Source of the DNA: Firmicutes bacterium ADurb.Bin193
GTDB lineage: Bacteria > Bacillota > Clostridia > Monoglobales > Firm-18
DNA: 64,000 nucleotides
Direction of reading: 5' to 3'
Assembly (NCBI GenBank): GCA_002070105.1
Contig: MWCQ01000003.1
Coordinates: 1-64,000 of the forward strand
This document shows positions 1,084 to 34,860 of this stretch, in pieces; the first letter of the stretch is position 1; each line of letters begins with the position of its first letter. Below the pieces are notes generated by a model. The model searched no databases. It had not been told where the DNA came from and saw only the letters and a program-made list of their open reading frames with translations. Position numbers and translations under genes: made by a program.

Positions 1084-2736
1084 TTATTTCTGGACATATA
1101 CAATTTTCTTTAATGACACTTTATCAAGCGGAATATGTATATCCTCTATTTTCTGACCAGTTACGATATCCCCGTAAAACACAAGACCCTTTTCTGCGGG
1201 CGGAGCGTTCTCAACATCAAACCTGCCTTTGAAAATATCCTTTAATGACAAGTTTGACGGGTTTTCTAAAATCTCGCATTTTATTCTTATGGTTGCTCCG
1301 TTCCCGTTATCGCACACAAGTGAGGGATAGTATGTAATCGCGATTTTTACATCTGTGTCACGCTCTATTGATTTATCCAAATCATTTAGCATATTTATAA
1401 AAACAAAACCGAATTCCCTTGAAAAGTTATATGAGTCAACAGGTTTCTTTTCTGCATTGCTGTCGGCAAACGGCTCGGTATAAACTTCATTCGGAATACC
1501 CTCAAGTATGCACCTGAAATCCTTGTAATTTTCGGGATATCCGCTTATGTCTTTTCTGATTTTCGAATTTTTGATTATCTGCTGAGTTTTATTGAATTCC
1601 GTCGTAAATTCCGACTCGGAACCGATAAGATTGTCAAGCTGAAGAAGAATACAGGTAAATTCCTTTAGCGTTACCGGCTTATCGGGAGAAATCGACCCGT
1701 CGGCATAAAGCGAAACGCCGTTTTCGAAGGAGTATGTCAGGCAAATATTCTCCATTGTCTTTTCAAGCGGACCGATATCTTTGTAATAATTGTCCGTTCT
1801 GCCATAGCGAACCGCCGTGCGGGATTTCCTTATCATGTTGTAGGTAAGCGCAACAAGCGTATCGCGCACATTGGCGGGCTTATCGATAAATTCCTTATTT
1901 ATTTTATCCTCACCTATACAGTTGGTTCCGATTATGTATAGATCAGATGAATATTCATGCTCAAAAGGCTTCTTGGTCGGGTATTTCGAATATGTAAGAT
2001 TATACTCCTCAGAGCCGAGGCGTACAGCCGCCCTCGCCATCTCACCGTTTGTAATGGTTTTGTTTTCGTCATATTGCATATTGTCAAAAAGCCTTACGCT
2101 TTCAAAAAACCTCTTCAGACTTTCGGAGGATACGGTGTCAACAAAATTTTTCTTCGGGCTGTTTTCATTTATGCTTCTCGCCCTGACAATAAGAACGGCA
2201 GCCTCCGCTCTTGACAATGAATCACCAAGTCTAAGATTCATTCCGTCATCTCCGACCATAATCCCATTCGTATAACCCCATGCAACAGGGTCCTTATCGG
2301 CGCTTTGAGCTGTTACAATCGAAGGGGCAATTACGCCCTTTACGCTTCCGTTACGCTTCCATATAAGTCTTAATACATCGCCTCTTGTAATGGCGGCTTC
2401 AGGATTAAATTTATTATCCTCACCCTCAAGACCGGAAGTCATTATATATTCATAGCCCCAATAAGACGGAGGAACATCACTAAAATCCCTTGTTCGCCTG
2501 TCCGAACCCATACCGAGCATTTTCACGAATTCAGCGCGTGATACGGTATTTGCGGGCTTAAACTGACCATCGTCAAACCCCTTAACCGTTCCGTCTTCTA
2601 CCAAAGCAGCAACAGCCGTATATGCCCAGTGGTCCTGTGCAAGGTCGGGAAAAGAAGCCTGCGCACCCATAACCGATAGTGCAGTCATTAAAGAGATACA
2701 AATAAGTGTTGCACAGAATAAAGCTTTTCTCAACAT
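1084..2736 (-). CDS. SLH-domain cell-surface protein
   Basis: This is a secreted protein of about 550 residues. An ATG 12 codons further upstream is possible, but the ATG at 2736 is preceded by TTAGGAGAG at good spacing and opens directly with a signal peptide (LRKALFCATLICISLMTAL...A). Two clear S-layer homology motifs follow: FPDLAQDHWAYTAVAALVEDG with GFDDGQFKPANTVSRAEF, then FSDVPPSYWGYEYI. A third is weaker. SLH domains bind pyruvylated secondary cell-wall polymer and anchor proteins at the surface. The C-terminal about 350 residues match nothing I know. The gene lies downstream of the kinase/PqqD peptide operon on the same strand, but the gap of about 165 bases makes co-transcription uncertain. 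Confidence 0.8.
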   Translation of the reverse strand: MLRKALFCATLICISLMTALSVMGAQASFPDLAQDHWAYTAVAALVEDGTVKGFDDGQFKPANTVSRAEFVKMLGMGSDRRTRDFSDVPPSYWGYEYIMTSGLEGEDNKFNPEAAITRGDVLRLIWKRNGSVKGVIAPSIVTAQSADKDPVAWGYTNGIMVGDDGMNLRLGDSLSRAEAAVLIVRARSINENSPKKNFVDTVSSESLKRFFESVRLFDNMQYDENKTITNGEMARAAVRLGSEEYNLTYSKYPTKKPFEHEYSSDLYIIGTNCIGEDKINKEFIDKPANVRDTLVALTYNMIRKSRTAVRYGRTDNYYKDIGPLEKTMENICLTYSFENGVSLYADGSISPDKPVTLKEFTCILLQLDNLIGSESEFTTEFNKTQQIIKNSKIRKDISGYPENYKDFRCILEGIPNEVYTEPFADSNAEKKPVDSYNFSREFGFVFINMLNDLDKSIERDTDVKIAITYYPSLVCDNGNGATIRIKCEILENPSNLSLKDIFKGRFDVENAPPAEKGLVFYGDIVTGQKIEDIHIPLDKVSLKKIVYVQK

Positions 2737-2901
2737 AAGTAACTCTCCTAACAGAAATTTTTTCTTTAGCATGAGTAAACGCTGATTAATTTAGTAACAT
2801 CAATAAAACTAAAGCTTCACAAAGATGTCCCCTGTTTTAAAACTTGTTTAGACGGCGGGTTCCGGTTCGTTCCTCAAGCGGAGGATATATCACCCGTTTT
2901 A

Positions 2902-3765
2902 TTATAATCCCAATTCGTTTTTAACCATACGGACCGCTTCCTCCGACACATTGCAGGACAACTGATATATCGGAACTTCCCTAACCATTTTTCCGATAAA
3001 ATCAAGGCTTAACTCCAAAAGCTCAGGCATTACGGATTTTCTTGTTTCGTTAAGCAACCTTGTAAAAGCCTGTCCGCCGCTGAGTTTTCTTATTGCATTG
3101 TCACTGTTTTGTTCAATAAAAACAATAGCGCGAAGCGGGGCAACGCAATTTTGGTTTATAGCAGTACTGCCGCTCCACGGCGTCCCGAAGACATAGAATT
3201 GATTATCAATAATCCTAAGTGCCGGAGTATCATCGTTAATAATCCTCGTACTGTCCTTATAATACTTTTTCCACAACGATGTGTGTGTGGATTTCCCGCT
3301 GCCTGAAGGGCCGGAGAACAAAATAGCGTTGTTGTTATAATCCAAAGCAGAGGAATGAAAAACAAGCCCGTTGTGCTTAAGCAGTATGTAGTAAAAAAAT
3401 TCCCCCGCAACAAAAAAAATTCTTCGCTCATTCGTTATATTAAATTCGTTTTCAAAATTGTAAAGCTGAATCTTGATTTTTGTCATATCCTTATCCATTT
3501 CGACAAGTGATACGCATTCACCGGTTATCGGGTGCTTTTGAAAAGCGGCATACCCGCCGCAGTCCGTTTCGATCCAGTTCCATCTGTGGATTCTCTTATA
3601 TACCTTCCCTTTCGGAAGGATTATGTTGTCATTGCTTCGATAGAATATGTCAACATCGCTGCGTCCCCGGTTATGAGCAGCATACTCGTTCATTCGCATG
3701 CGAAAGAAATCATAATCTATACCTTTGTAATCCAGAACTAAATTCGCAATTCTGTAACGGCTCAA
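2902..3765 (-). CDS. HPr-kinase-like kinase (PadeK-type accessory kinase)
   Basis: This protein of about 287 residues carries an HprK-type P-loop (FSGPSGSGKSTHTSLW), a following acidic INDDTPAL motif and GTPWSGS, the arrangement of the HPr kinase/PEP-carboxykinase fold. In paeninodin-type lasso clusters, relatives of this family phosphorylate a C-terminal Ser of the precursor peptide. The classical N-terminal domain of HPr kinase is missing, so carbon catabolite control is unlikely. I prefer the TTG at 3765, which follows AAAAGGGTG and begins LSRYRIANLV; an ATG at 3816 has no ribosome site. It is the last gene of the peptide operon, separated from the precursor by a long perfect stem-loop. 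Its substrate is inferred from position. Confidence 0.75.
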   Translation of the reverse strand: MSRYRIANLVLDYKGIDYDFFRMRMNEYAAHNRGRSDVDIFYRSNDNIILPKGKVYKRIHRWNWIETDCGGYAAFQKHPITGECVSLVEMDKDMTKIKIQLYNFENEFNITNERRIFFVAGEFFYYILLKHNGLVFHSSALDYNNNAILFSGPSGSGKSTHTSLWKKYYKDSTRIINDDTPALRIIDNQFYVFGTPWSGSTAINQNCVAPLRAIVFIEQNSDNAIRKLSGGQAFTRLLNETRKSVMPELLELSLDFIGKMVREVPIYQLSCNVSEEAVRMVKNELGL

Positions 3766-3910
3766 GATACAACACCCTTTTAGCTTATACAATTCATGAT
3801 ATACGCTTTTACTCATAATTTTACAGCCGGATAAAAAAGCGACCTATGTCAAGCCGATGCATTTTCCGACATTTCACAGTTATTCCATATTAATTAAATC
3901 AGTCAATAAT

Positions 3911-3944
3911 ACCATAAAGCCAAGGCAAGCCTTGGCTTTATGGT
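3911..3944. other. Perfect 15-bp stem-loop between precursor and kinase genes
   Basis: The arms ACCATAAAGCCAAGG and CCTTGGCTTTATGGT flank a 4-base loop without mismatch. It begins 8 bases after the precursor stop. No T-tract follows on the minus strand, so it looks less like a simple terminator than an attenuator or a 3'-end stabiliser that would raise precursor mRNA over kinase mRNA. Confidence 0.7.
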
Positions 3945-3952
3945 CTGTTATT

Positions 3953-4117
3953 TTATTCGCTTAGCGAACCTTCACCTAAATTCAATATTTCCATTTGAGG
4001 ATTTGAAAGTGAAGCAGGATCTCCTAAGTTATATGTTGTGGTGTTACCATAGTTCGCTATGTTTTCCGAAACCCGGATTTGAACTATCTCTAATGTCGGT
4101 TTCTGATACTTTTTCAT
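3953..4117 (-). CDS. Small precursor-like peptide with lasso-type leader (54 aa)
   Basis: This 54-codon gene has one of the strongest ribosome sites in the window (GGAGGAGG, 6 bases before ATG). It begins MKKYQKPTLEIVQI. Precursors of paeninodin-family lasso peptides begin the same way, and the YxxP..L leader motif is what their PqqD-like partner binds. The presumed core is polar and rich in Ser, Thr, Asn and Gly, has no Cys, and ends GEGSLSE. Its neighbours encode a PqqD-like protein, a peptidase, an ABC exporter and a kinase, so it is the likely substrate of all four. No lasso leader protease or cyclase is present, so a simple lasso product is not supported. A non-modified structural peptide remains possible. 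Confidence 0.8.
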   Translation of the reverse strand: MKKYQKPTLEIVQIRVSENIANYGNTTTYNLGDPASLSNPQMEILNLGEGSLSE

Positions 4118-4142
4118 TATATCCTCCTCCTATTCCTAATTA

Positions 4143-5240
4143 TTAATTAAATTCAACCGGATCACCATAATCAACCGTAATGTTACCCTCTGAATCCTTA
4201 GTCATTAAATACAATCTTGTATAGTATTTTTCGGTTGGGCTAAGGTAACCCTTGCCACCGTCTTCCAATTTTACCGCAAATCTGCCGTCCCAACCTCTGT
4301 TTAAGGCCTTGTATTTGTTAATTCCGGTTGCTTTATCTGCACCATCATTAAATCCGTCAACAACATTATCGCCAAACGAAACCTTTATTGTAGCATCGAA
4401 GGAGGACATGTCAGCATTATAAGCAGGATTGTAATAAAGAACTATGCCGAATTCATATTCATCATCATCCAGTGCCGGATCAACGGTAACCACACCAAAG
4501 GTTATGGCAGTATCGCCTGCAGTATGGTCAAAGACAGAACCTCCGCCAATCCAATTGCTTGCAGGTTCACCGGCAGGTTTAAATGTAACCGCCAAAGTAG
4601 TACTTCCGTCATCGGCAATACCGGTAGCGGTAAAGTATCCGAATCCGCCTGCTCCGATAATTACATTGTTAAGCGAAACCGGAACGCCTTTGTATGTTAT
4701 TGTGTCAATTGAGTATCCGTCATCGGGATCAATTTTGAAAATCGCTTCGTTTCCGATAACCCAAGCATCGTCAACACTTGCTTCGGAAGTTTCGCTATAA
4801 AGAATTACATCTCCACCGGCACCGGCTGTTACAGCTACATTGAAAGCTTCGAATTCATCTGTACCGCCGCCTGCAACCTCTATAGTATCTGCGCTTGAAC
4901 CTAAACGAACAACGGTTTTGCCAACCTTGTCAAAATCCGCAACATAATTAAATTCAGCGGTTCCGTCAGCCTCTACGCTTTTCTGGTCAACAAAAATAAC
5001 ATTGTTGCCGGCTCCGCCAACCGTCAGAGGTGTTTTAGAGTTATACGCCAAATAAGTAGCCTCCGAACCAGCAGTTGCGTCTTGAACAATTGTATTAACG
5101 GCAACGGTAGCATCCCCCATGTTATAAACCGTTGTTGTGTTGTGAGTTGCTGCTAAAGCACTCATAGCGGTACTTAATATAATCATTGCTACTGCTGTCA
5201 TTACCGCAAAGAATTTCTTAAAAATTTGCCTTTTTCTCAT
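4143..5240 (-). CDS. Secreted acidic beta-rich protein of the peptide operon
   Basis: This 365-residue protein has a classical signal peptide (basic MRKRQIFKK, hydrophobic core, cleavage near LSTAMSALA-A). The mature part is acidic and rich in Gly, Asp, Thr and Val, has no Cys, and is probably all beta. The mature N-terminus reads ATHNTTTVYNMGDA, which resembles NTTTYNLGDPA in the downstream precursor peptide. No known catalytic motif is visible. It lies between the exporter gene and the precursor gene with only 25 bases to the latter, so it is almost certainly co-transcribed. It may be a second substrate or the partner of the peptide; this is inference. Confidence 0.7.
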   Translation of the reverse strand: MRKRQIFKKFFAVMTAVAMIILSTAMSALAATHNTTTVYNMGDATVAVNTIVQDATAGSEATYLAYNSKTPLTVGGAGNNVIFVDQKSVEADGTAEFNYVADFDKVGKTVVRLGSSADTIEVAGGGTDEFEAFNVAVTAGAGGDVILYSETSEASVDDAWVIGNEAIFKIDPDDGYSIDTITYKGVPVSLNNVIIGAGGFGYFTATGIADDGSTTLAVTFKPAGEPASNWIGGGSVFDHTAGDTAITFGVVTVDPALDDDEYEFGIVLYYNPAYNADMSSFDATIKVSFGDNVVDGFNDGADKATGINKYKALNRGWDGRFAVKLEDGGKGYLSPTEKYYTRLYLMTKDSEGNITVDYGDPVEFN

Positions 5241-5278
5241 TAAACTTCCCCCTTGCTAATATTATTATTATAATTATT

Positions 5279-6952
5279 TTATAAAGCTGACAATTTAAAT
5301 TTGCAGTCATTTATCAAAACCGATTTATTGCAAATTTCAAATGCTGCCTTCCTGTGGGAAACAATAATGCAAGTTTTGTCCCTTGTATTCTTAATGTTTG
5401 CAAGCAGAGCGGCTTCCGTTTTTTCATCCAGAGCGGATGTGGCCTCGTCCAGAAGAATAATCGGAGCGTCGTGGTATAATGCCCTTGCAACCGCAATCCT
5501 CTGTATCTGACCTTCCGATAACCCCAGGCCCTTTTCACCCAAAACGGTATCAAGTTTGTCGGGCAGGGAATCGATAAACTCCCAAATCTCAGCCGTTTTT
5601 GCACATTCAACAATATATTCGTCATCTAACGCCTTATCGGAAAAACTTATGTTGTCACGAATTGTACCCGACAGTATCATATTGCCCTGAGGAACATAGG
5701 CGAAAATCCCCCGTGTCCTCCTTCCGAGCGCAATCCTTTCACCGTTTTTCAGTTTTATGTATATTTCTCCGCTTGTAGGCGAGATTATACCGAGTAAAAG
5801 CTTTAGAAATGTACTTTTTCCTATTCCGGAACTTCCGCCGACTGCAATGAAATCGCCCTTTTTTATGATTAAATCCGTTTGATCCAAAACGCCGGTGTTG
5901 TCATATGCAAAAGAAACATTGTTAAATACAATTTCCTCCGCATCGCGGTAAATACGCTCACAGTCAAGTTCGGAGCAGCTACTGTCCTCTTCGTCCGGCA
6001 AGTCTAAAATTTCCATAATCCTTTCGGCGGATACAATCATCGAAAAATACCTCGGAACTATCGATGAAAGACTGCGAAACGGTATTTGAATCTGACCCAC
6101 CAGCTGAAGCATTGCGGTTAAAGTTCCGAATGTAATAACACCCGTCAAAATCCTGTATGCGCCCCATGCAAGCGCAAAGTAAAATACGATTGTTGCCGCT
6201 ATGTAAAACAGAATATTCGCCGCTATACTAACATTATTCCTCTTTATGTTGTATCTGTAATTCTCATTTTGCAACTCTGTCGAGTGATTCACAACGGCTT
6301 TTTCATTGCCGAAGGATTTTATAACGAGAATATTCTGCAAACACTCCTGCATAAACGAACGGGTTTTTCCATCGCTTTCCTGACACTTTTTTTGAAGTCC
6401 CTTCATTCGTCTGCGGTATATATACGAAGCCATCAGTACAACCGGGCCAATCGCCAAACATATTAAAGCAAAAGTCATGTCCAAGGAGAACAAAGCCACA
6501 AAACTTAAGACAATCCTGACCAAAAACCCCAAAACATTCGGAATAATTTCTACCACGGCGCCCGACACGAAGCTTATATCACTGTTGAGCCGATTGATAA
6601 GTTCGCCCGAATGATAATTGTTTACGCTTGTGTAATCCTTCATAAGAAGATTGCCGAAAAGCTTTTTTCGCATTGACATCGCAAATCTTCCGACTATTCT
6701 TATGTCAAGGGTTGAAACCAAAACCTGAAGAACAAGCTGTGCCGCAATGAGGATTGCCAGTTTGATGCTTTCAGTTACAACATTATTGCTTAAACTTCCG
6801 ACCGCGGCATCAATTACATTCTTTGAAACCAATGCGAAGCTTACACTTAACGAGGAAAGCAGTATTCCAAAAATCGAAAGCAATATTATGGCAGGTATTA
6901 TACGCCTTGATTCACCGTATATCCATTTCAGCGCCGAAAAATCGCTTTTCAC
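5279..6952 (-). CDS. ABC exporter, fused membrane and ATPase domains
   Basis: This is a 557-residue half-transporter. The membrane domain spans about 20-300 with six hydrophobic segments. The ATPase at about 330-557 has Walker A GGSSGIGKST, Q-loop YVPQGN, signature LSEGQIQRIAVARAL, Walker B IILLDEATSALDE and switch His in IIVSHRKA. There is no N-terminal C39 protease domain, so leader removal must be done by another protein. The upstream reading frame is open, but I chose the GTG at 6952: it overlaps the TGA of the peptidase gene by four bases (GTGA) and follows AAGGTGG. It probably exports the operon's peptide. Confidence 0.85.
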   Translation of the reverse strand: MKSDFSALKWIYGESRRIIPAIILLSIFGILLSSLSVSFALVSKNVIDAAVGSLSNNVVTESIKLAILIAAQLVLQVLVSTLDIRIVGRFAMSMRKKLFGNLLMKDYTSVNNYHSGELINRLNSDISFVSGAVVEIIPNVLGFLVRIVLSFVALFSLDMTFALICLAIGPVVLMASYIYRRRMKGLQKKCQESDGKTRSFMQECLQNILVIKSFGNEKAVVNHSTELQNENYRYNIKRNNVSIAANILFYIAATIVFYFALAWGAYRILTGVITFGTLTAMLQLVGQIQIPFRSLSSIVPRYFSMIVSAERIMEILDLPDEEDSSCSELDCERIYRDAEEIVFNNVSFAYDNTGVLDQTDLIIKKGDFIAVGGSSGIGKSTFLKLLLGIISPTSGEIYIKLKNGERIALGRRTRGIFAYVPQGNMILSGTIRDNISFSDKALDDEYIVECAKTAEIWEFIDSLPDKLDTVLGEKGLGLSEGQIQRIAVARALYHDAPIILLDEATSALDEKTEAALLANIKNTRDKTCIIVSHRKAAFEICNKSVLINDCKFKLSAL

Positions 6953-7437
6953 AGGCTTTTCCACCTTTGCCCCGACAATGCGCTCCGCAAGCCTTTTAAT
7001 ATTTTGACAATTATAAACCTGTTGGGCATAAACAGAACCCACAGAAAACTGTAAATCTTGTAAAGAGGATTGTTGCAGGAGATATGCTTCCCTTTTCTGA
7101 AAATACTTTCAACGGTAGCAATAACCTGTTTTGGATAAACCGGGTATTCCGTAACCGTTTCAAAGTCACCCGCCAAAACCATCGCACCGTCTTCTTTAAT
7201 CCCCACAACCCTGTGAAGTATGTATTCGCCGTTTTCTCGTTTATAAAGTATAATATCATATTTTGATATGGTTGATTTCTTCTTTATTATTACACTGTCA
7301 ATGCTGGTCCTCAAAAGAGGGTACATACTGTTGCCTGTGATCGTAAGCTTAACGCGCGAGCCGCTGTTTAAAATATCAAGAAACAGAGGAGATAAAGTCG
7401 CAATGCTTTTTGTTAAAGTTTTTTCGTTCTTTTTCAA
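6949..7437 (-). CDS. S26-type signal peptidase-like protein
   Basis: This 162-residue protein has the nucleophile box GNSMYPLL (residues about 36-43) and the second box YILHRVVGI, where His replaces the Lys of bacterial signal peptidase I, as in SipW/ER-type enzymes. GDFE further on matches the family's last box. A hydrophobic stretch near the C-terminus (IYSFLWVLFMPNRFIIVKI) would anchor it. It begins with TTG 7 bases after the PqqD-like gene and overlaps the exporter gene by four bases, so the three are co-translated. Members of this family recur beside PqqD-like and HprK-like genes in Bacillota. It is the best candidate for processing the precursor or the secreted partner. Confidence 0.8.
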   Translation of the reverse strand: MKKNEKTLTKSIATLSPLFLDILNSGSRVKLTITGNSMYPLLRTSIDSVIIKKKSTISKYDIILYKRENGEYILHRVVGIKEDGAMVLAGDFETVTEYPVYPKQVIATVESIFRKGKHISCNNPLYKIYSFLWVLFMPNRFIIVKILKGLRSALSGQRWKSL

Positions 7438-7444
7438 GCTGATA

Positions 7445-7711
7445 TTAAACGACCAGGTCTTTCTCTCTTAAAATTTTAACAAACTCCTCTACATCGCGCC
7501 TTGCGGTTTCTTCGTCTACATCTTCATATTCATTTACAACAGCTTCGATTAACTGTTCCTCGCTCTTGTCCTCGCCGAGTTCTTTCCATAGGAACATGCC
7601 GGTTTTATTCAGAACAATCATAGAGTTGAAATCAACTAAATTTTCACCGACAGGAATAACAACACAGTCCCCTTCTATTTCCTTCAGCAGGAAGCCATCT
7701 TTAATTTTCAT
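7445..7711 (-). CDS. PqqD-like peptide chaperone (RiPP recognition element)
   Basis: This 88-residue protein has the PqqD pattern: a beta-hairpin region with FNSMIVLNKTGMFLWKEL, then helices (LIEAVVNEYEDVDEETARRDVEEFVKIL in part) and a final beta strand. PqqD folds bind the leader of ribosomally made peptides and hand them to modifying enzymes; in lasso systems this is protein B1. The leader motif YxKPxLE of the peptide at 3953-4117 fits this role. It is the first gene of the operon, with GGAGGATAG before ATG and a near-consensus promoter 36-64 bases upstream. Confidence 0.85.
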   Translation of the reverse strand: MKIKDGFLLKEIEGDCVVIPVGENLVDFNSMIVLNKTGMFLWKELGEDKSEEQLIEAVVNEYEDVDEETARRDVEEFVKILREKDLVV

Positions 7712-7746: not shown

Positions 7747-7775
7747 ATTTTACCATACGAACAAGCATAAGTCAA
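7747..7775 (-). promoter_or_regulatory. SigA-type promoter of the PqqD/peptide operon
   Basis: On the minus strand TTGACT (7775-7770), a 17-base spacer and TAAAAT (7752-7747) precede the PqqD-like gene. Confidence 0.75.
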
Positions 7776-9437: not shown

Positions 9438-10439
9438 TTACTTAAAGACCGGTTTGTTGTTTTTAAATTCACCCTCATAATCGATGGTAGTCCCGTCAAT
9501 ATAAAGCCTTCCTATACCCTCATACATATTTTTTGTCCACTCGCCCTCATAGCGCAGCTTTCCGCTTATATACTCCACCCCATAGCCTTCCCTCAGATTC
9601 TGTGCCCAATACCCCACATATCTGCTTCGGTCTCTGCTGAAGATAAATTCCCCGTATCCGCTTCTGTTTCCGTCAAGCCACTGACCGAAATACCGGTCGC
9701 CGCTGTACCAGCTGAAAACGCCGTATCCGTTCATCTGTCCGTTTTTCCATTCGCCCTTGTACTCGTCTTTGTTCTTCCACTTTATTTCGCCGTATCCGTG
9801 GAAGCCCCCCTTCAGCCAGCCCCCCGTATATGTATAGGAATTCTTATATTCCAGACGCCCGAATCCGTCAAACTGTTCGTCCTTCCATTCTCCCTCATAC
9901 CTGTTTTTGTTTTTCCATGTCATTACTCCGTAGCCGTTGGGAGTATCATCCTTCCACGAACCTTTATAGACATTCCCGTTTTCGTATTTCATAACGCCGT
10001 ATCCGTTTCTTTTCCCGTTCTTTACACCGCCGATATATACACCCTTATCGTAATGAACAACCGCGTTTTCGGTAACATAAACCTGTGTCTGCGCGGTAAT
10101 ACCCCGTACCGTCAGGTTTATAACCGCAACTCCGTTTGAAATCCCCGTAACAATGCCGTCATCCGAAACAGTGGCTATTCCGGGATTCTTGCTTTCATAA
10201 ACCATATCCTTTTTGGTGTAAAAGGGGATAAATCCGACCTTTTTAATTATTTTGGTGGTTTCGTTTTGGTTGATTTGAGCAGATTGAGGTTTTATGCTCA
10301 TGCCGGAATAAAACGGATTGATGTTTCCACCTACATACATAAAGCAGAATGTGACAAAAATAAGCAAAGCCCCCAAAAGCAAAGCACTGCGGGCTTTATT
10401 CTGACAAATTAATTTGCATATCCCTCTGAGCAATTCCAT
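9438..10439 (-). CDS. Membrane-anchored Big_2 and MORN-repeat protein
   Basis: This 333-residue protein has one membrane segment at about 17-37, a bacterial Ig-like (Big_2) domain at about 48-125 (NPGIATVSDDGIVTGISNG is typical), then about nine MORN repeats of the Y.G.W..G..NGYG.. form to the end. The topology places the repeats outside the cell. MORN repeats form an elongated beta-meander used for binding lipids, proteins or wall surfaces. It is the last gene of the exopolysaccharide locus, 15 bases after the GH114 gene, with AGAGGTG before ATG. Two other MORN proteins occur in the window. Confidence 0.8.
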   Translation of the reverse strand: MELLRGICKLICQNKARSALLLGALLIFVTFCFMYVGGNINPFYSGMSIKPQSAQINQNETTKIIKKVGFIPFYTKKDMVYESKNPGIATVSDDGIVTGISNGVAVINLTVRGITAQTQVYVTENAVVHYDKGVYIGGVKNGKRNGYGVMKYENGNVYKGSWKDDTPNGYGVMTWKNKNRYEGEWKDEQFDGFGRLEYKNSYTYTGGWLKGGFHGYGEIKWKNKDEYKGEWKNGQMNGYGVFSWYSGDRYFGQWLDGNRSGYGEFIFSRDRSRYVGYWAQNLREGYGVEYISGKLRYEGEWTKNMYEGIGRLYIDGTTIDYEGEFKNNKPVFK

Positions 10440-23362: not shown

Positions 23363-24643
23363 TCAGCCCTGTCCGACATAAACATCATCCTGCCAGATAC
23401 CCTCGGTAACCGTTCCGTCGGGCTCGACATTTCTTCCGTATCCGTTCTTTTTGCCGTGTTGCCACTGACCTTCATAGATCTCACCGCTCGCCCAGCGGAA
23501 AACCCCATAGCCGTGGAAGCTGTTTGTGTGCCAATCTCCCTCGTAATAATTGCCCGTTGCCCATACGAACTTGCCCTTACCGTGAAATTCGCTTGCCCAC
23601 CATTCGCCGGTGTATGTGTCTCCGTTTGCCCATACCATAGTACCCTTGCCCTGGAATGAACCGTCAACGATATCGCCCGTGTAATGGTCGCCGTTCGACC
23701 ATATCATTTCCCCCCGGCCGTTCATGTTGTCATTGCTCCAGCCGCCCGTATACACAAAACCGTCGCTGCGCAAAAACCTTCCTTCGCCCTCACGCTTTCC
23801 GTTTAAAACATAACCTTCATAAACGCTACCGTCGGGATAGTTCACTATGCCGTAACCGTTGGGTATGCCGTACTCGCTCTGCCCGATGAACAATGTACCG
23901 TCGTGCATATGTATGTTTGCCTCCCTGTTGTAAAGAGAAGATACTCTGAAAGCGGGAGGAATCAGCATATCGTTTGAGTACCTGAAGTCCGCGCGGGTAA
24001 GCACCGATTGCTGTATATCGTTTGCTTCCACTACATACTCCAAAAATGTGGCTCCGTGCGGAAGCTTTACATCAAGTGACTCCCACACAATACCTATCAT
24101 GTCGTTTTTGGTAAGAATTTTATCGTTTACATATTTTGCATCACTCGGCGAAATCCCTCCGAGATATGAATTGATATATGCCGAAATCGACAGGAATTCT
24201 TCGGGAATCTCATGCTTTAAGCACTTTAAAAGCATTCCCGCAAAGGTTTTCCCGTCAATAAGCCTTTTGGGCATAAGTGAATTCCCCGTAATATCGGGAA
24301 ACAAACCAAGCTTTGCCGCCAGTGCGACATACGACCTTGCCCATATCGAAACCGTATCCTTATCGGTATAGGGATTCAGAGCAATGTTAATCTGATAGTC
24401 GGACATGTTAGTCGCTCTTTTCGCCTGTCCGATAAGTCTTATAAGAAAAACAGCCGCTGTTTCCCTGTCGAGAAACTCTTCCAAGCTAGGCTCAAAACGG
24501 TTTGCATTCGTCCCCATGTAAAGTCTTAACTCATAAAATACCTTCGCCTGTTCAATATAGCTGTTGGAATATTGCGCATATGCCCCCGATGAAAAAGCGA
24601 ATAATGCCAAAAGGCAGATAACAACCAATTTTAGTTTTTTCAT
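23363..24643 (-). CDS. Secreted SLH-like and MORN-repeat protein
   Basis: This 426-residue protein has a signal peptide (KKLKLVVICLLALFAFSSGAYA), an N-terminal half with degenerate SLH-like elements (DRETAAVFLIRLIG; NPYTDKDTVSIWARSYVALAAKLGL), and about eight MORN repeats from residue about 255 to the end (for example GDTYTGEWWASEFHGKGKFVW). It is therefore a wall-associated MORN protein exported from within the exopolysaccharide locus. It may bind polymer or peptidoglycan outside the membrane; no enzyme motif is present. Confidence 0.78.
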   Translation of the reverse strand: MKKLKLVVICLLALFAFSSGAYAQYSNSYIEQAKVFYELRLYMGTNANRFEPSLEEFLDRETAAVFLIRLIGQAKRATNMSDYQINIALNPYTDKDTVSIWARSYVALAAKLGLFPDITGNSLMPKRLIDGKTFAGMLLKCLKHEIPEEFLSISAYINSYLGGISPSDAKYVNDKILTKNDMIGIVWESLDVKLPHGATFLEYVVEANDIQQSVLTRADFRYSNDMLIPPAFRVSSLYNREANIHMHDGTLFIGQSEYGIPNGYGIVNYPDGSVYEGYVLNGKREGEGRFLRSDGFVYTGGWSNDNMNGRGEMIWSNGDHYTGDIVDGSFQGKGTMVWANGDTYTGEWWASEFHGKGKFVWATGNYYEGDWHTNSFHGYGVFRWASGEIYEGQWQHGKKNGYGRNVEPDGTVTEGIWQDDVYVGQG

Positions 24644-30072: not shown

Positions 30073-32400
30073 ATGAGGAGGGCACTCAAGTCTTTTGTAG
30101 CTTCAACTTTAGTTTTGAGCATCTTGTTTATCAATGCCGCGGCGTTTGCCGAACATGAAATTTCGAATCACTATTCCGATTATGCAGCCTACATAAAAAA
30201 GGGCATCAGCTTAAGCGGAACAGGCGCAATTAACGGGGACGCGCTTTCGGCGGAGGGAAATATAAGTCTTACCGTATTCGACGATTCAAATATAATCGAC
30301 GGCACTCTGTATCATAAACACGATGCGATGATAGCCCTTTGCGAAAGTTCACAGATTAAAATGGGAACCGTTTCATTTGACAGTATTGCGTACAGTGCGC
30401 CCGTACCGAGCTTTCCTTCAACCCCTGTCATAAACAATTACGGCGGAACGCTTGTCTGCCCGTGGTACCCCGCTGTTACCATTTCACAAAGTACAAGGTA
30501 TGACAGCCTGACAATAAGCGGCGGTATAACGATTGATACCGGAAGCTCGGATATAATAATAACCACCGACTATCTTACTCTTTCGGGCGGGTATATTAAC
30601 CTTGACGGGTCGGGAGATCTTTACATATTTGTTAACGAAAGCATCAGCATTACAGGCTCGTTTAAATTCAACGAATACGGTAACAGCGACAGAGTTCATA
30701 TACTCGTAAAAAAAGGCGATGTGAATATCAGCAATTACATTGTTTTAAACGGCAATATATATATGGAGCAGGGGAATATATCCTTCCTTTTCGGCGGTTC
30801 GAAAATAAACGGCAACATCGTAGCAACGGGTGACGCGGTCAGCATTGCCAACGAAGCACAGATAACCGGTATTGTGTATGCACCGAATGCCCATATCTAT
30901 ATAACATCGTCGGCACTTGTCACAGGCGTTATGGTAGGTAACAGCCTTGATATAACGGGTCATGCCGATATTGACTACAGTAAGAAAACGCTTTGCATTC
31001 CCGACTTCGGGATTGAGCCTACTCCCACACCATCACCAACACTAACACCTTCGGAAGAGCCGACACCAACTCCCGAACCTTCGGAAGAACCCACACCGAC
31101 ACCGACTCCTTCGGAAGAGCCTACACCGACTCCCGAACCTTCGGAAGAGCCAACAACAACTCCCGAACCTTCCGAAGAACCTACACCGACTCCCGAACCT
31201 TCGGAAGAGCCCACACCGACACCGACCCCTTCGGAAGAGCCTACACCGACTCCCGAACCTACATGCAGTCCGGACCCCGGTGACCCTTCCGACCCGATAT
31301 TCAGCTCTTTACAATACACCGCAGAAACCTTTGCGGGAACGGGAATAGCGGGCTTTAACGGGGATAACGGAAGCATGTCGCCGAGAACACACGCCTCGGC
31401 AACCGATGCAGAGCTTTATCACCCCAGAGGTCTTGCGATTGATGCAAACGGAAGCCTTTACATAGCAGACGAGAGAAACGGCGCGGTAAGAAAGGTTTCA
31501 AACGGCTCAATGACAACCGTTACGGGTAACGGAATTGAAAACGGTTACACATCATCGGACTATACGGGACCCGCTTACGGGCAGGGAATGTATGAGCCCA
31601 TGGCGGTAGCGGTAAGCTCATGCAATTTGCTTTACTTTTTGGATACCGACCACCACATAGTAAGAATGATAGACGAAAACGGGAACCTTAAAACCGTTGC
31701 GGGCGTTTTGGAAATCGGTTCCGCGGGCGGGTACTCGGACGGAGGGGGAGTTGCCCTAAACGCAAAGTTCAACACTCCTCAGGGTATAGCCGTTGACAGT
31801 TTTGGAAATATCTATGTCGCCGATACCAACAATCATATTATAAGAAAAATAACCAAAAACGGCGAGATAATAAACATAGCGGGACAGCCCGGCGTCGGCG
31901 CATTTTCGGGCGACGGCGGCAAGGCAACAGACGCAAGGCTTAACAGACCTATGGGACTTGCCACAGACAGTGAGGGAAACCTGTACATCGCCGACACGCA
32001 TAATCACCGAATAAGAAAAATTAACCTTTCCACAGGTATTATTACAACCGTTGCGGGCAGCGACCGTCTTCCGACAAACAGTGCTACAGCTGACGGAATC
32101 GGAGACTACGGCACTGCAACCTCTGCCGCACTTTTCTTCCCGCATGATGTTGCGGTTGACGCTGCGGGCAACATCTATATAGCGGACAGCCAGAACCACA
32201 GAATCAGAAAGGTAATAAAGTCGTCGGGCAAGATTGTTTCAATCGCGGGCGACGGCTACGGCGGAACCGCCGCAAACAGCGGAGCCGCAACATCGATAAG
32301 GCTTAACCATCCAAAGGGTGTGGAGGTTGACGAAAACGGCTGTGTTTATATTTCAGACACTCAAAACAATGTTATAAGAAAGCTAATCCCTAATATTTAA
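30073..32400 (+). CDS. Secreted surface protein: polymer-forming-like, PT-rich linker, NHL propeller
   Basis: This 775-residue protein has a signal peptide (1-27, ending AAAFA), a beta-solenoid-like region at about 40-310 resembling bactofilin/polymer-forming surface modules (ISLSGTGAINGDALSAEGNIS; KINGNIVATGDAV), a Thr-Pro-Ser-Glu repeat linker at about 317-400 and a C-terminal NHL beta-propeller with at least five copies of the GxxxIYxADTxNHxIRKI motif (for example GNLYIADTHNHRIRKI). NHL propellers are interaction platforms. There is no SLH or sortase signal, so anchoring may depend on the solenoid part. It is likely co-regulated with the c-di-GMP genes through the TTACATT boxes. Confidence 0.78.
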   Translation: MRRALKSFVASTLVLSILFINAAAFAEHEISNHYSDYAAYIKKGISLSGTGAINGDALSAEGNISLTVFDDSNIIDGTLYHKHDAMIALCESSQIKMGTVSFDSIAYSAPVPSFPSTPVINNYGGTLVCPWYPAVTISQSTRYDSLTISGGITIDTGSSDIIITTDYLTLSGGYINLDGSGDLYIFVNESISITGSFKFNEYGNSDRVHILVKKGDVNISNYIVLNGNIYMEQGNISFLFGGSKINGNIVATGDAVSIANEAQITGIVYAPNAHIYITSSALVTGVMVGNSLDITGHADIDYSKKTLCIPDFGIEPTPTPSPTLTPSEEPTPTPEPSEEPTPTPTPSEEPTPTPEPSEEPTTTPEPSEEPTPTPEPSEEPTPTPTPSEEPTPTPEPTCSPDPGDPSDPIFSSLQYTAETFAGTGIAGFNGDNGSMSPRTHASATDAELYHPRGLAIDANGSLYIADERNGAVRKVSNGSMTTVTGNGIENGYTSSDYTGPAYGQGMYEPMAVAVSSCNLLYFLDTDHHIVRMIDENGNLKTVAGVLEIGSAGGYSDGGGVALNAKFNTPQGIAVDSFGNIYVADTNNHIIRKITKNGEIINIAGQPGVGAFSGDGGKATDARLNRPMGLATDSEGNLYIADTHNHRIRKINLSTGIITTVAGSDRLPTNSATADGIGDYGTATSAALFFPHDVAVDAAGNIYIADSQNHRIRKVIKSSGKIVSIAGDGYGGTAANSGAATSIRLNHPKGVEVDENGCVYISDTQNNVIRKLIPNI
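31047..31262 (+). repeat. Tandem Thr/Pro/Glu-coding repeat
   Basis: Imperfect tandem units of about 27-36 bases (CCTTCGGAAGAGCC, ACACCGACTCCCGAA) encode TPSEEPTPTPEP blocks. This is a low-complexity linker inside the NHL surface protein and is prone to length change by slippage. Confidence 0.9.
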
Positions 32401-32478: not shown

Positions 32479-34860
32479 TTACTCCCCTATATAATCCCCC
32501 TCATACCACTGACCCGACATAACTTCGCCGCTTGCCCATCTGAAGGTTCCGAATCCGTGAAATTTTTCGTTAAGCCACTGCCCTGTATATGAGTTTCCGC
32601 TTATCCACTCAAATGTTCCTTCTCCGTTAAACTTTCCGTCTTTAAACTGTCCCGTATACCTGTCGCCGTTTTGCCAGAGATATGTCCCGAAGCCGTTTAT
32701 TTCGTCATTTCTGAACTCTCCCTTATAGCTGTTGCCGGTTGCACACAGCAAAATGCCCTCACCCTCACGCATATTCCCCGAAAAATATCCGCAATACCTG
32801 TCGCCGTTGGGATAAATCATAACCCCGTAGCCCTCTGCTTTGCCGTCTTTAAGCTCGCCTTCATAAATCCTTTTGTCCGGGAAGGTAATGGTTCCTCTGT
32901 TTTCATCGCGCCTGCTCCACGAAACATCAGGAAAATCCCTGTACGGCAGGTCGCGGTGGATTATATCCATAGCCTTTTTCCATATAACCGCCGCGGGATT
33001 GGGCCGCCCCGCAAGAAGCCGCTCCATCGGCTTTGGAGTGTCATACCCGAACCATACCGCACCTACATAGTAGGGAGTATAACCCACAAACCATCTGTCC
33101 TTGTCGTCAGAGGTTGTTCCTGTTTTCCCCGCCGCAGGCATCTTGACGGAAAGCCGCGCGGCAGTGCCCGTACCGCTTTTTACGGCGGCGGACAGCATCT
33201 GTGTCATATAATAAGCGGCCTGTTCCCTTATCGCAACATGGGATTCGGGGTTTTGTCGATTGTCGAATATCACCTCGCCGCTGTGTGCCACTACCTTTGA
33301 ATAGGTGTGCGGCTTAATATAAATACCCCTGTTTATAAAAGGCACATACGCCGCCGCCATCTCCTGCACGGTTACTCCGTCAGTAAGCCCGCCGAGAGCA
33401 AGCGAGCTGTAATTTTTGTCGCTGTACTCCTTTCCGTCCCGAATTTCCTTATCGGCAAGTGTGGTAATACCCAAATTATTTTCAAGAAAAGAAAATGAAC
33501 GCTCAATGCCCACAAGCGCCAAAACCTTAACCGCAACAACATTTATGGACTGCTCGACGGCTTTTTGTACCGTTACGCTGCCGCGATAGCCCTTGTACCA
33601 GTTTCGGGGTGTCCACCCGCCCACAGTATACGGTGCGTCGGTCAAAACAGATTTCGGCGTTATAATCGCATGGTCTATGGCAGGCGCATAAACCGAAATC
33701 GGCTTAATTGACGAACCGGGCTGGCGTACGGTCTGTGTCGCCCTGTTAAGCGTAAGCATACCCTTTTTCTCGCCCCGTCCGCCGACAATCCCCTTCACCT
33801 CGCCCGAATACGGGTCGATAACAATCATTGCGGCATTGGTCTTATCACCCGAGGCGTCATCGGGAAAATTTTTATCATCGGCAAAAACCTTTTCCAAAGC
33901 CTCCTGAACGCCCATATCAACCGTAGCGTAAATTTTCAGCCCTCCGGTATATATCAGCTTTGACGCCATTGCCCTTGTGTACCCCTTTTTGTTTTGAAGG
34001 TCGTCCATTACATCGGCAACAACCTGGTCTATAAAATAGCCGCATTTGTTGTAATCCCTCTGCTGTGACTCCTTTGTAAATGTTAAAACCTCGGAAATCG
34101 CATTGTCATACTCCTCACGGCTTATGTATCCGTTCTTCAGCATTTCGGACAGAACAATCTCTTTTTTAATCCTGTTTTCATTCTCGTTAATAAAGGGATT
34201 ATACCTTTGCGGAAGCTGTGTAATCCCCGCAATAGATGCCGCCTGCGCAAGCGACAGCTCCGACACATCCTTGCCGAAATAGCTGTATGCCGCCGCCTGA
34301 ACTCCGTAAGCGCCCTCTCCGAAAAAAACGGTGTTGAGATAAAGCTCCAAAACCCTTTGCTTTCCGATCTGCCTCTCAAGCCTGAAGGCAAGCCACATTT
34401 CCTGTATCTTTCGCTTTACCGTAATTTCGTCGTTTTGCGTAAGATTTTTCACAAGCTGTTGTGTAATCGTGCTCCCTCCGAAGGATGTTTCCCCTCGAAA
34501 GATATAGTCAAAAGCGGCATGCAAGGTTCTTTTTATATCAATGCCGTTGTGTCGCCAATACCTTTTATCCTCAATTGAAATAATCGCGTTTTGCATATCG
34601 GACGGAATATCGGATAGCGAAACCCAAACCCTGTTCTTGCCGTCATGAAGCTTTATGAGTATTTCTTCACCCTGCCCCTGTGGCGCTGTCGCATATATAA
34701 ACGATGTAAAGTCAAGCGAAAGCTCCTCTATATTCAGCTTGGGGGCTGTCCTGATACAATTTATAAGGAGGATACCACCGCAAAGCATAAGCATGGTAAA
34801 GCCGAAAAGAACATAGCATGCGGCAACGAAAGCCTTGTTTTTATACAGTAAGGCAAGCAT
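32479..34860 (-). CDS. Class A penicillin-binding protein with C-terminal MORN repeats
   Basis: This is a 793-residue bifunctional murein synthase. It has a membrane anchor at about 10-33, then a GT51 glycosyltransferase at about 60-235 (SIEDKRYWRHNGID with catalytic Glu; FGGSTITQQLVKNL). The transpeptidase at about 300-600 has the nucleophile box GSSIKP, SIN (EQSINVVAVK) and KTG (PAAGKTGTT). Residues about 655-793 are six MORN repeats (GDRYTGQFKDGKFNGEGTF and similar). Class A PBPs commonly end in a disordered or PASTA/Fn3 tail; a MORN tail is not a standard architecture. All catalytic residues are present. AAAGGAGGGGG precedes ATG. The MORN part probably targets the enzyme to a wall site. 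Confidence 0.92.
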   Translation of the reverse strand: MLALLYKNKAFVAACYVLFGFTMLMLCGGILLINCIRTAPKLNIEELSLDFTSFIYATAPQGQGEEILIKLHDGKNRVWVSLSDIPSDMQNAIISIEDKRYWRHNGIDIKRTLHAAFDYIFRGETSFGGSTITQQLVKNLTQNDEITVKRKIQEMWLAFRLERQIGKQRVLELYLNTVFFGEGAYGVQAAAYSYFGKDVSELSLAQAASIAGITQLPQRYNPFINENENRIKKEIVLSEMLKNGYISREEYDNAISEVLTFTKESQQRDYNKCGYFIDQVVADVMDDLQNKKGYTRAMASKLIYTGGLKIYATVDMGVQEALEKVFADDKNFPDDASGDKTNAAMIVIDPYSGEVKGIVGGRGEKKGMLTLNRATQTVRQPGSSIKPISVYAPAIDHAIITPKSVLTDAPYTVGGWTPRNWYKGYRGSVTVQKAVEQSINVVAVKVLALVGIERSFSFLENNLGITTLADKEIRDGKEYSDKNYSSLALGGLTDGVTVQEMAAAYVPFINRGIYIKPHTYSKVVAHSGEVIFDNRQNPESHVAIREQAAYYMTQMLSAAVKSGTGTAARLSVKMPAAGKTGTTSDDKDRWFVGYTPYYVGAVWFGYDTPKPMERLLAGRPNPAAVIWKKAMDIIHRDLPYRDFPDVSWSRRDENRGTITFPDKRIYEGELKDGKAEGYGVMIYPNGDRYCGYFSGNMREGEGILLCATGNSYKGEFRNDEINGFGTYLWQNGDRYTGQFKDGKFNGEGTFEWISGNSYTGQWLNEKFHGFGTFRWASGEVMSGQWYEGDYIGE

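Follow-up and report, generated by a model that had tools for sequence, protein, structure and literature searches.

The window, the whole analysed stretch of 64,000 nucleotides from Firmicutes bacterium ADurb.Bin193, carries on its minus strand a single operon that encodes, in this order, a PqqD-like protein, an S26-type peptidase, an ABC exporter, a secreted protein (SEC), a 54-aa peptide precursor (PEP) and a kinase (Table 1). ORF and profile checks bear out this six-gene arrangement, which a sequence-only reading of the same DNA had already described. That reading let the operon end with the kinase gene at position 2902; instead, it runs on into a gene for a surface protein with S-layer homology domains (SLHP) and then into one for a membrane protein, which is probably the last gene of the operon. 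Homologues of the membrane protein follow the SLH gene in four related loci (L032-L035) and are present also in L087 and L180. The ORF of the ABC exporter overlaps the S26 gene and its start codon is uncertain, and translation of the kinase may in truth begin at residue 18, with a TTG codon. Between the PEP and kinase genes a hairpin is found in the window and in most related loci, in several of them with a T run, and it is probably a partial terminator. Such an element would permit an excess of SEC and PEP over the kinase, as is expected if the peptide must outnumber the enzyme. A structured RNA was rejected, an Rfam search having given no match, and a defence system was ruled out, the matches being cross-hits of the ABC ATPase only. 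Elsewhere in the window, the end of an IS3-like integrase (...NYNNFPMRPLKWQSPKTVLQNFLTDGVTYH*) was recognised by eye at the contig edge (1-140, plus strand), as was a secreted protein in which NHL-like repeats are combined with a long (PTPEPSEEPT)n linker (30073-32400, plus strand). Three MORN-like repeat proteins lie at 9438-10439, 23363-24643 and 32479-34860 (minus strand); one of them has a Big_2 domain by profile match, and inspection by eye suggests a putative SLH-like N-terminal part in another and an apparent fusion to a penicillin-binding protein in the remaining one.

Table 1. Features of the operon and its surroundings, with positions in the window.
Feature	Position	Strand	Basis
PqqD-like discrete RRE, 88 aa, predicted leader-binding protein	7445..7711	-	Pfam PF05402, 65.5 bits (cut-off 23.4)
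S26/SipW-like (archaeal-type) peptidase, predicted leader peptidase	6949..7437	-	TIGR02228, 34.6 bits, and catalytic triad
MsbA-like ABC exporter without C39 protease domain	5279..7042	-	PF00664 and PF00005 above cut-offs
SEC, secreted beta-rich protein, mature N-terminus ATHNTTTVYNMGD	4143..5240	-	Signal peptide by inspection
PEP, 54-aa precursor, leader YQKPTLEIVQIRVSENIA, core with NTTTYNLGD	3953..4117	-	Conserved small ORF
Hairpin directly 3' of the PEP stop codon, 17-bp stem, 1 mismatch	3907..3944	-	Similar stems in most relatives
HprK/PEPCK-fold kinase, 304 aa	2902..3816	-	AF2 model, structure matches and invariant residues
SLHP, surface protein with S-layer homology domains	1084..2772	-	PF00395, 86.3 bits
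Membrane-anchored coiled protein, 244 aa	209..943	-	Homologues 3' of the SLH gene in relatives
Promoter-like site upstream of PqqD, TTGACT-17-TAAAAT, extended TG	7747..7775	-	Consensus scan only

The small ORF has a strong ribosome-binding site, and in about 30 loci homologues of it lie next to the same set of genes, in agreement with the sequence-only reading, which had taken it for the precursor of a ribosomal peptide. A lack of conservation of this ORF, which that reading had named as a ground for refutation, is thereby rejected. Comparison of the window with four relatives gave pN values of 0.29-0.36 and pS values of 0.59-0.89. Since the gene order recurs in many genomes and the ORF is under purifying selection, PEP is a real gene and not a chance ORF. 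A known precursor family was ruled out, as none of the eight members searched matched an NCBIfam model. The leader contains YQKP in the window and [YF]xxP in relatives, and is thus of the YxxP type of the linear polyphosphorylated peptides (LPP; Popov et al., May 2026, PMC13381572) and not of the WxxP type of paeninodins (PMC13381572), so that its earlier description as paeninodin-style has to be given up. Across the cassettes the leaders read YxKPxLxVVxLxVxENIA. The cores that follow are highly variable among loci, and T-x-Y/F is present in 25 of 30 cores, as against 7.7 in shuffled cores.

The PqqD protein is the only one of its genome in a genome-wide profile search, and its nearest solved structure is TbiB1. 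The S26 protein scores below the family cut-offs (34.6 bits for TIGR02228, cut-off 51.85) and aligns to SipW and archaeal signal peptidases; its triad of Ser (GNSM), His (LHR) and Asp (AGD) is kept in all 16 aligned cassette members, the window included. An equivalent triad (S29/H68/D93) is found in LppS of LPP (PMC13381572), and the S26 gene product is predicted to be the leader peptidase. As the sequence-only reading had it, the ABC exporter consists of membrane and ATPase domains without a protease domain; its best NCBIfam model is MsbA, with a score under that model's own cut-off. Sequence searches with the S26 protein and the kinase returned no useful solved relatives, and the sequence matches of the kinase, to ScmC and HprK_rel_A, are weak. 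The AF2 model of the kinase (pLDDT 93.5), by contrast, is matched by Foldseek to PEPCK and HPr kinase (HprK) with E about 1e-6 and probability 1.00, and VIA aligned 245 residues at an rmsd of 4.7, with a best Z of 14.8. The kinase has the HprK/PEPCK fold, and its H154, Walker A motif (GxGKSTH) and NDD are invariant among 33 homologues. One kinase of the window type was found in a genome-wide search, and on a quick tree kinases of this type group together (6 label changes, compared with 23 in shuffles).

The operon resembles paeninodin-type lasso clusters in its PqqD protein, HprK-like kinase, ABC exporter and aromatic-x-x-P leader, but differs from them in that B2 and the macrolactam cyclase are absent, the leader has Y in place of W, and an S26 peptidase is added. 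The absence of B2 and cyclase, which the sequence-only reading had noted for the operon, extends to the whole genome (completeness 99.8%): B2 (PF13471) was found neither there nor in any of the 27 other cassette genomes, and the lasso cyclase model reached a score of 253 with a cut-off of 525, leaving the genome without a match above cut-off. The sole enzyme of the asparagine synthetase family is the housekeeping asn_synth_AEB (507 bits, cut-off 267). Completion of a lasso pathway elsewhere in the genome, which had been named as a possible objection, is thereby rejected. That the operon is a decayed lasso pathway from which B2 and cyclase have been lost, leaving the PqqD protein, kinase and exporter that it has in common with paeninodin-type clusters, is highly improbable, given that the set without B2 is under selection in many species and that the S26 peptidase is present with its triad intact.

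A closer counterpart is the LPP pathway, whose gene set comprises a discrete RRE, a SipW-like leader peptidase, an HprK kinase, an MsbA exporter and an NTP transferase, and for which experiments showed that the peptidase removes the leader and that Ser3 of the core is polyphosphorylated (PMC13381572). The cassette has in common with it a discrete RRE, a SipW-like peptidase with Ser-His-Asp triad, an HprK-like kinase and an MsbA-like exporter, as well as a linear precursor with a YxxP leader and no cyclase. Because LPP was published with the same enzyme set, the linear, cyclase-less pathway with kinase and S26 peptidase, which the sequence-only reading had proposed, is of a type already described. 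The absence of B2 and the LPP precedent support this part of the proposal, which left out the invariant SEC and the frequent SLH protein, both of them pointers to a role at the cell surface. The precursors differ: those of LPP carry the motif YxxPxVLxHQxIxFETxxS with Ser at core position 3, whereas the cassette leaders have no FET and no Ser at the LPP site, and FET..S is missing from the precursor of the window. Furthermore, the cassette always contains SEC and usually an SLH protein, is found in Clostridia and lies partly at stable chromosomal sites. LPP clusters also hold an NTP transferase, while the operon of the window has none. Its genome has one elsewhere, in a polysaccharide-type locus, and it is conceivable, if rather unlikely, that this enzyme (PF14907) modifies the peptide further in trans, so that the phosphopeptide ends up nucleotidylated or glycosylated. 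The core genes of LPP include one of this family, and in the class sample 17 of 20 genomes with the cassette have NTP_transf_5, compared with 121 of the 371 other genomes (Fisher p 4e-6, a test that ignores the kinship of genomes). Against such a role, the gene lies outside the operon, and when lppN was deleted from LPP in a heterologous host, nothing changed (PMC13381572).

The order PqqD-S26-ABC-SEC-PEP-KIN-SLH recurs across several families of Clostridia. It is complete in 11 loci (the window, L032, L095, L097, L169, L173, L174, L177, L178, L180 and L184), and near-complete gene sets are present in further loci, some of which are cut by contig ends. Cassettes without the S26 gene (L037-L039, L170 and L175) and one without the ABC gene (L176) indicate that neither is strictly needed there. 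SEC adjoins PEP in all intact loci (30 loci counted), and in most cassettes the kinase gene is followed by that of an SLH protein (21 SLHP homologues aligned). Outside the class, one further weak cassette match was found in 398 genomes of the phylum, and SEC is nearly absent. L174, L177, L178 and L184 have the same housekeeping neighbours, and the presence of several copies at one housekeeping site fits a stable envelope function and not a mobile antibiotic cluster. SEC itself has no Pfam or NCBIfam family and no credible Pfam match. Since SEC-like N-terminal domains are likewise present in dockerin proteins that lack the cassette, such a domain by itself does not mark the cassette. An apparent second SEC copy in the same genome was rejected, as it is a dockerin-like protein with a SEC-like N-terminal domain (L188 1444-2067, minus strand; G000:C7:85583-86146).

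Some loci combine the enzymes differently. In L041-L047 and L049 an SLH protein directly precedes a KIN-PqqD-S26 trio without SEC, so the association between these enzymes and S-layer-type proteins reaches beyond the SEC-containing cassette. L121, L129, L148 and L151 have the order KIN-ABC-PqqD-S26 with peptides of another precursor type, MKLYNKPELNVE.FD.ED.IT...GMEF.I...N.F, beside the same enzymes. In L126 (6972-12069), L128 and L091 a radical SAM protein (372 aa in L126) lies between PqqD and cysteine-containing YxKP precursors, and genes for an HprK-like kinase, an S26 peptidase and an ABC protein come next. This LPP-like set, to which the radical SAM protein adds a further modifying enzyme, was seen in Ruminiclostridium and, across an unread gap, in Desulfosporosinus. 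SynChlorMet (ScmC/ScmD) and the Ruminiclostridium sets (L126, L128) resemble the operon of the window in their HprK-like kinase, PqqD protein and short precursors, but carry radical SAM enzymes, which the operon does not.

That the operon serves to make, phosphorylate, trim and export a short peptide is very probable. Taken as a whole, it is somewhat more probably than otherwise an LPP-like peptide pathway that forms part of a cell-surface operon. The PqqD protein would bind the YxKP leader of PEP, the HprK-like kinase would phosphorylate a Ser or Thr of the core, for which the conserved [ST]-x-Y is the best candidate, the SipW-like S26 peptidase would cut the leader off near ENIA, and the ABC protein would export the linear core. 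On the outside, the peptide may act together with the Sec-exported SEC and the wall-bound SLH protein, as part or regulator of a surface structure. Binding, cleavage and phosphorylation of PEP are predicted here from the enzymes and their LPP counterparts, while the partnership at the surface is inferred from the invariant synteny and the motif common to PEP and SEC. Three points weigh against this reading on the biosynthetic side, namely that LppK takes Ser and not Thr at its site (PMC13381572), while the conserved residue of the cassette is mostly Thr, that the FET..S motif is missing from PEP, and that the S26 or the ABC gene is absent from some cassettes. A competing view, to which perhaps one chance in a few may be given, is that the product is a free secreted phosphopeptide, a signal or an antimicrobial, and that SEC and the SLH protein are merely co-expressed as surface, immunity or display proteins, without ever binding it. 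Every biosynthetic part is of the LPP type, the cores vary strongly, and the function of LPP is itself unknown (PMC13381572), all of which this view would accommodate; it sits less well with the position of SEC beside PEP in every intact locus, the stable housekeeping location in several genomes, the occurrence of T-x-Y in both PEP and SEC, and the lack of a regulator gene in the set.

The motif deserves separate consideration. TT-Y is found at the mature N-terminus of SEC in 23 of 28 cases (7.8 in shuffles), and in the window the predicted mature N-termini of both proteins follow the pattern A-x-x-x-N-T-T-T-(x)-Y-N-x-G-D, slightly offset from one another (NTTTYNLGD in PEP, NTTTVYNMGD in SEC; z 7.0). 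Over 27 pairs the likeness is weak, with a mean z of 0.88 compared with 0.06 for other stretches of SEC, and matched pairs differ from mismatched ones with p 0.01 in a statistic that ignores kinship among loci. Co-evolution of PEP and SEC as a general rule was therefore rejected, since the likeness is weak apart from the window, and the shared motif is suggestive. The AF2 model of SEC, built from 10 sequences, is poor (pLDDT 56), and its weak Foldseek matches to FN3/Ig-like and retromer folds are untrustworthy. Both the restriction of the strong likeness to the window and the quality of the SEC model also count against the favoured surface pathway. A related arrangement is tapA-sipW-tasA of Bacillus subtilis, in which a SipW-type peptidase likewise lies beside a secreted beta-rich protein, accompanied by another factor whose N-terminus is similar, a likeness that on the side of the cassettes concerns the window. 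TapA supports TasA filaments via strand complementation, and secretion of TapA residues 44-57 alone suffices for biofilm (PMC10151520). By analogy, the S26 enzyme could serve foremost as a signal peptidase dedicated to SEC, while the peptide, imitating the first strand of mature SEC, would donate a strand to a TasA-like fibre or nucleate it, with phosphorylation controlling the assembly. The peptidase beside SEC and the likeness of the two N-termini in the window speak for such a fibre, which we nevertheless consider improbable: PEP has a YxxP RRE leader and not a Sec signal, its likeness to SEC fades at other loci, S26 is missing from some cassettes, and the model of SEC gives no reliable fold. 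The window also differs from tapA-sipW-tasA in its 54-aa RRE-type precursor, kinase, PqqD protein, ABC exporter and SLH protein, nor did any sequence homology to TasA emerge. A more far-reaching view, also rather unlikely, gives the ribosomal phosphopeptide a structural task: modified by the kinase and delivered by the RRE, S26 and ABC proteins, it would mimic the N-terminal strand of its Sec-exported partner SEC and in this way insert into, or nucleate, a surface assembly anchored in the S-layer.

The type of pathway has thus been known since 2026, while the obligate pairing with SEC, the SLH protein that often accompanies it and a precursor of another kind mark the cassette as a variant. No biological role is known for phosphorylated RiPPs (LPP and paeninodin), and the cassette ties the same enzymes to two identified surface proteins. 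This tie holds in many species, partly at stable chromosomal positions, and provides a concrete, testable target for peptides of this sort. If the reading as a surface pathway is true, RiPP-type processing would extend from secreted small molecules to the building or regulation of the cell surface.
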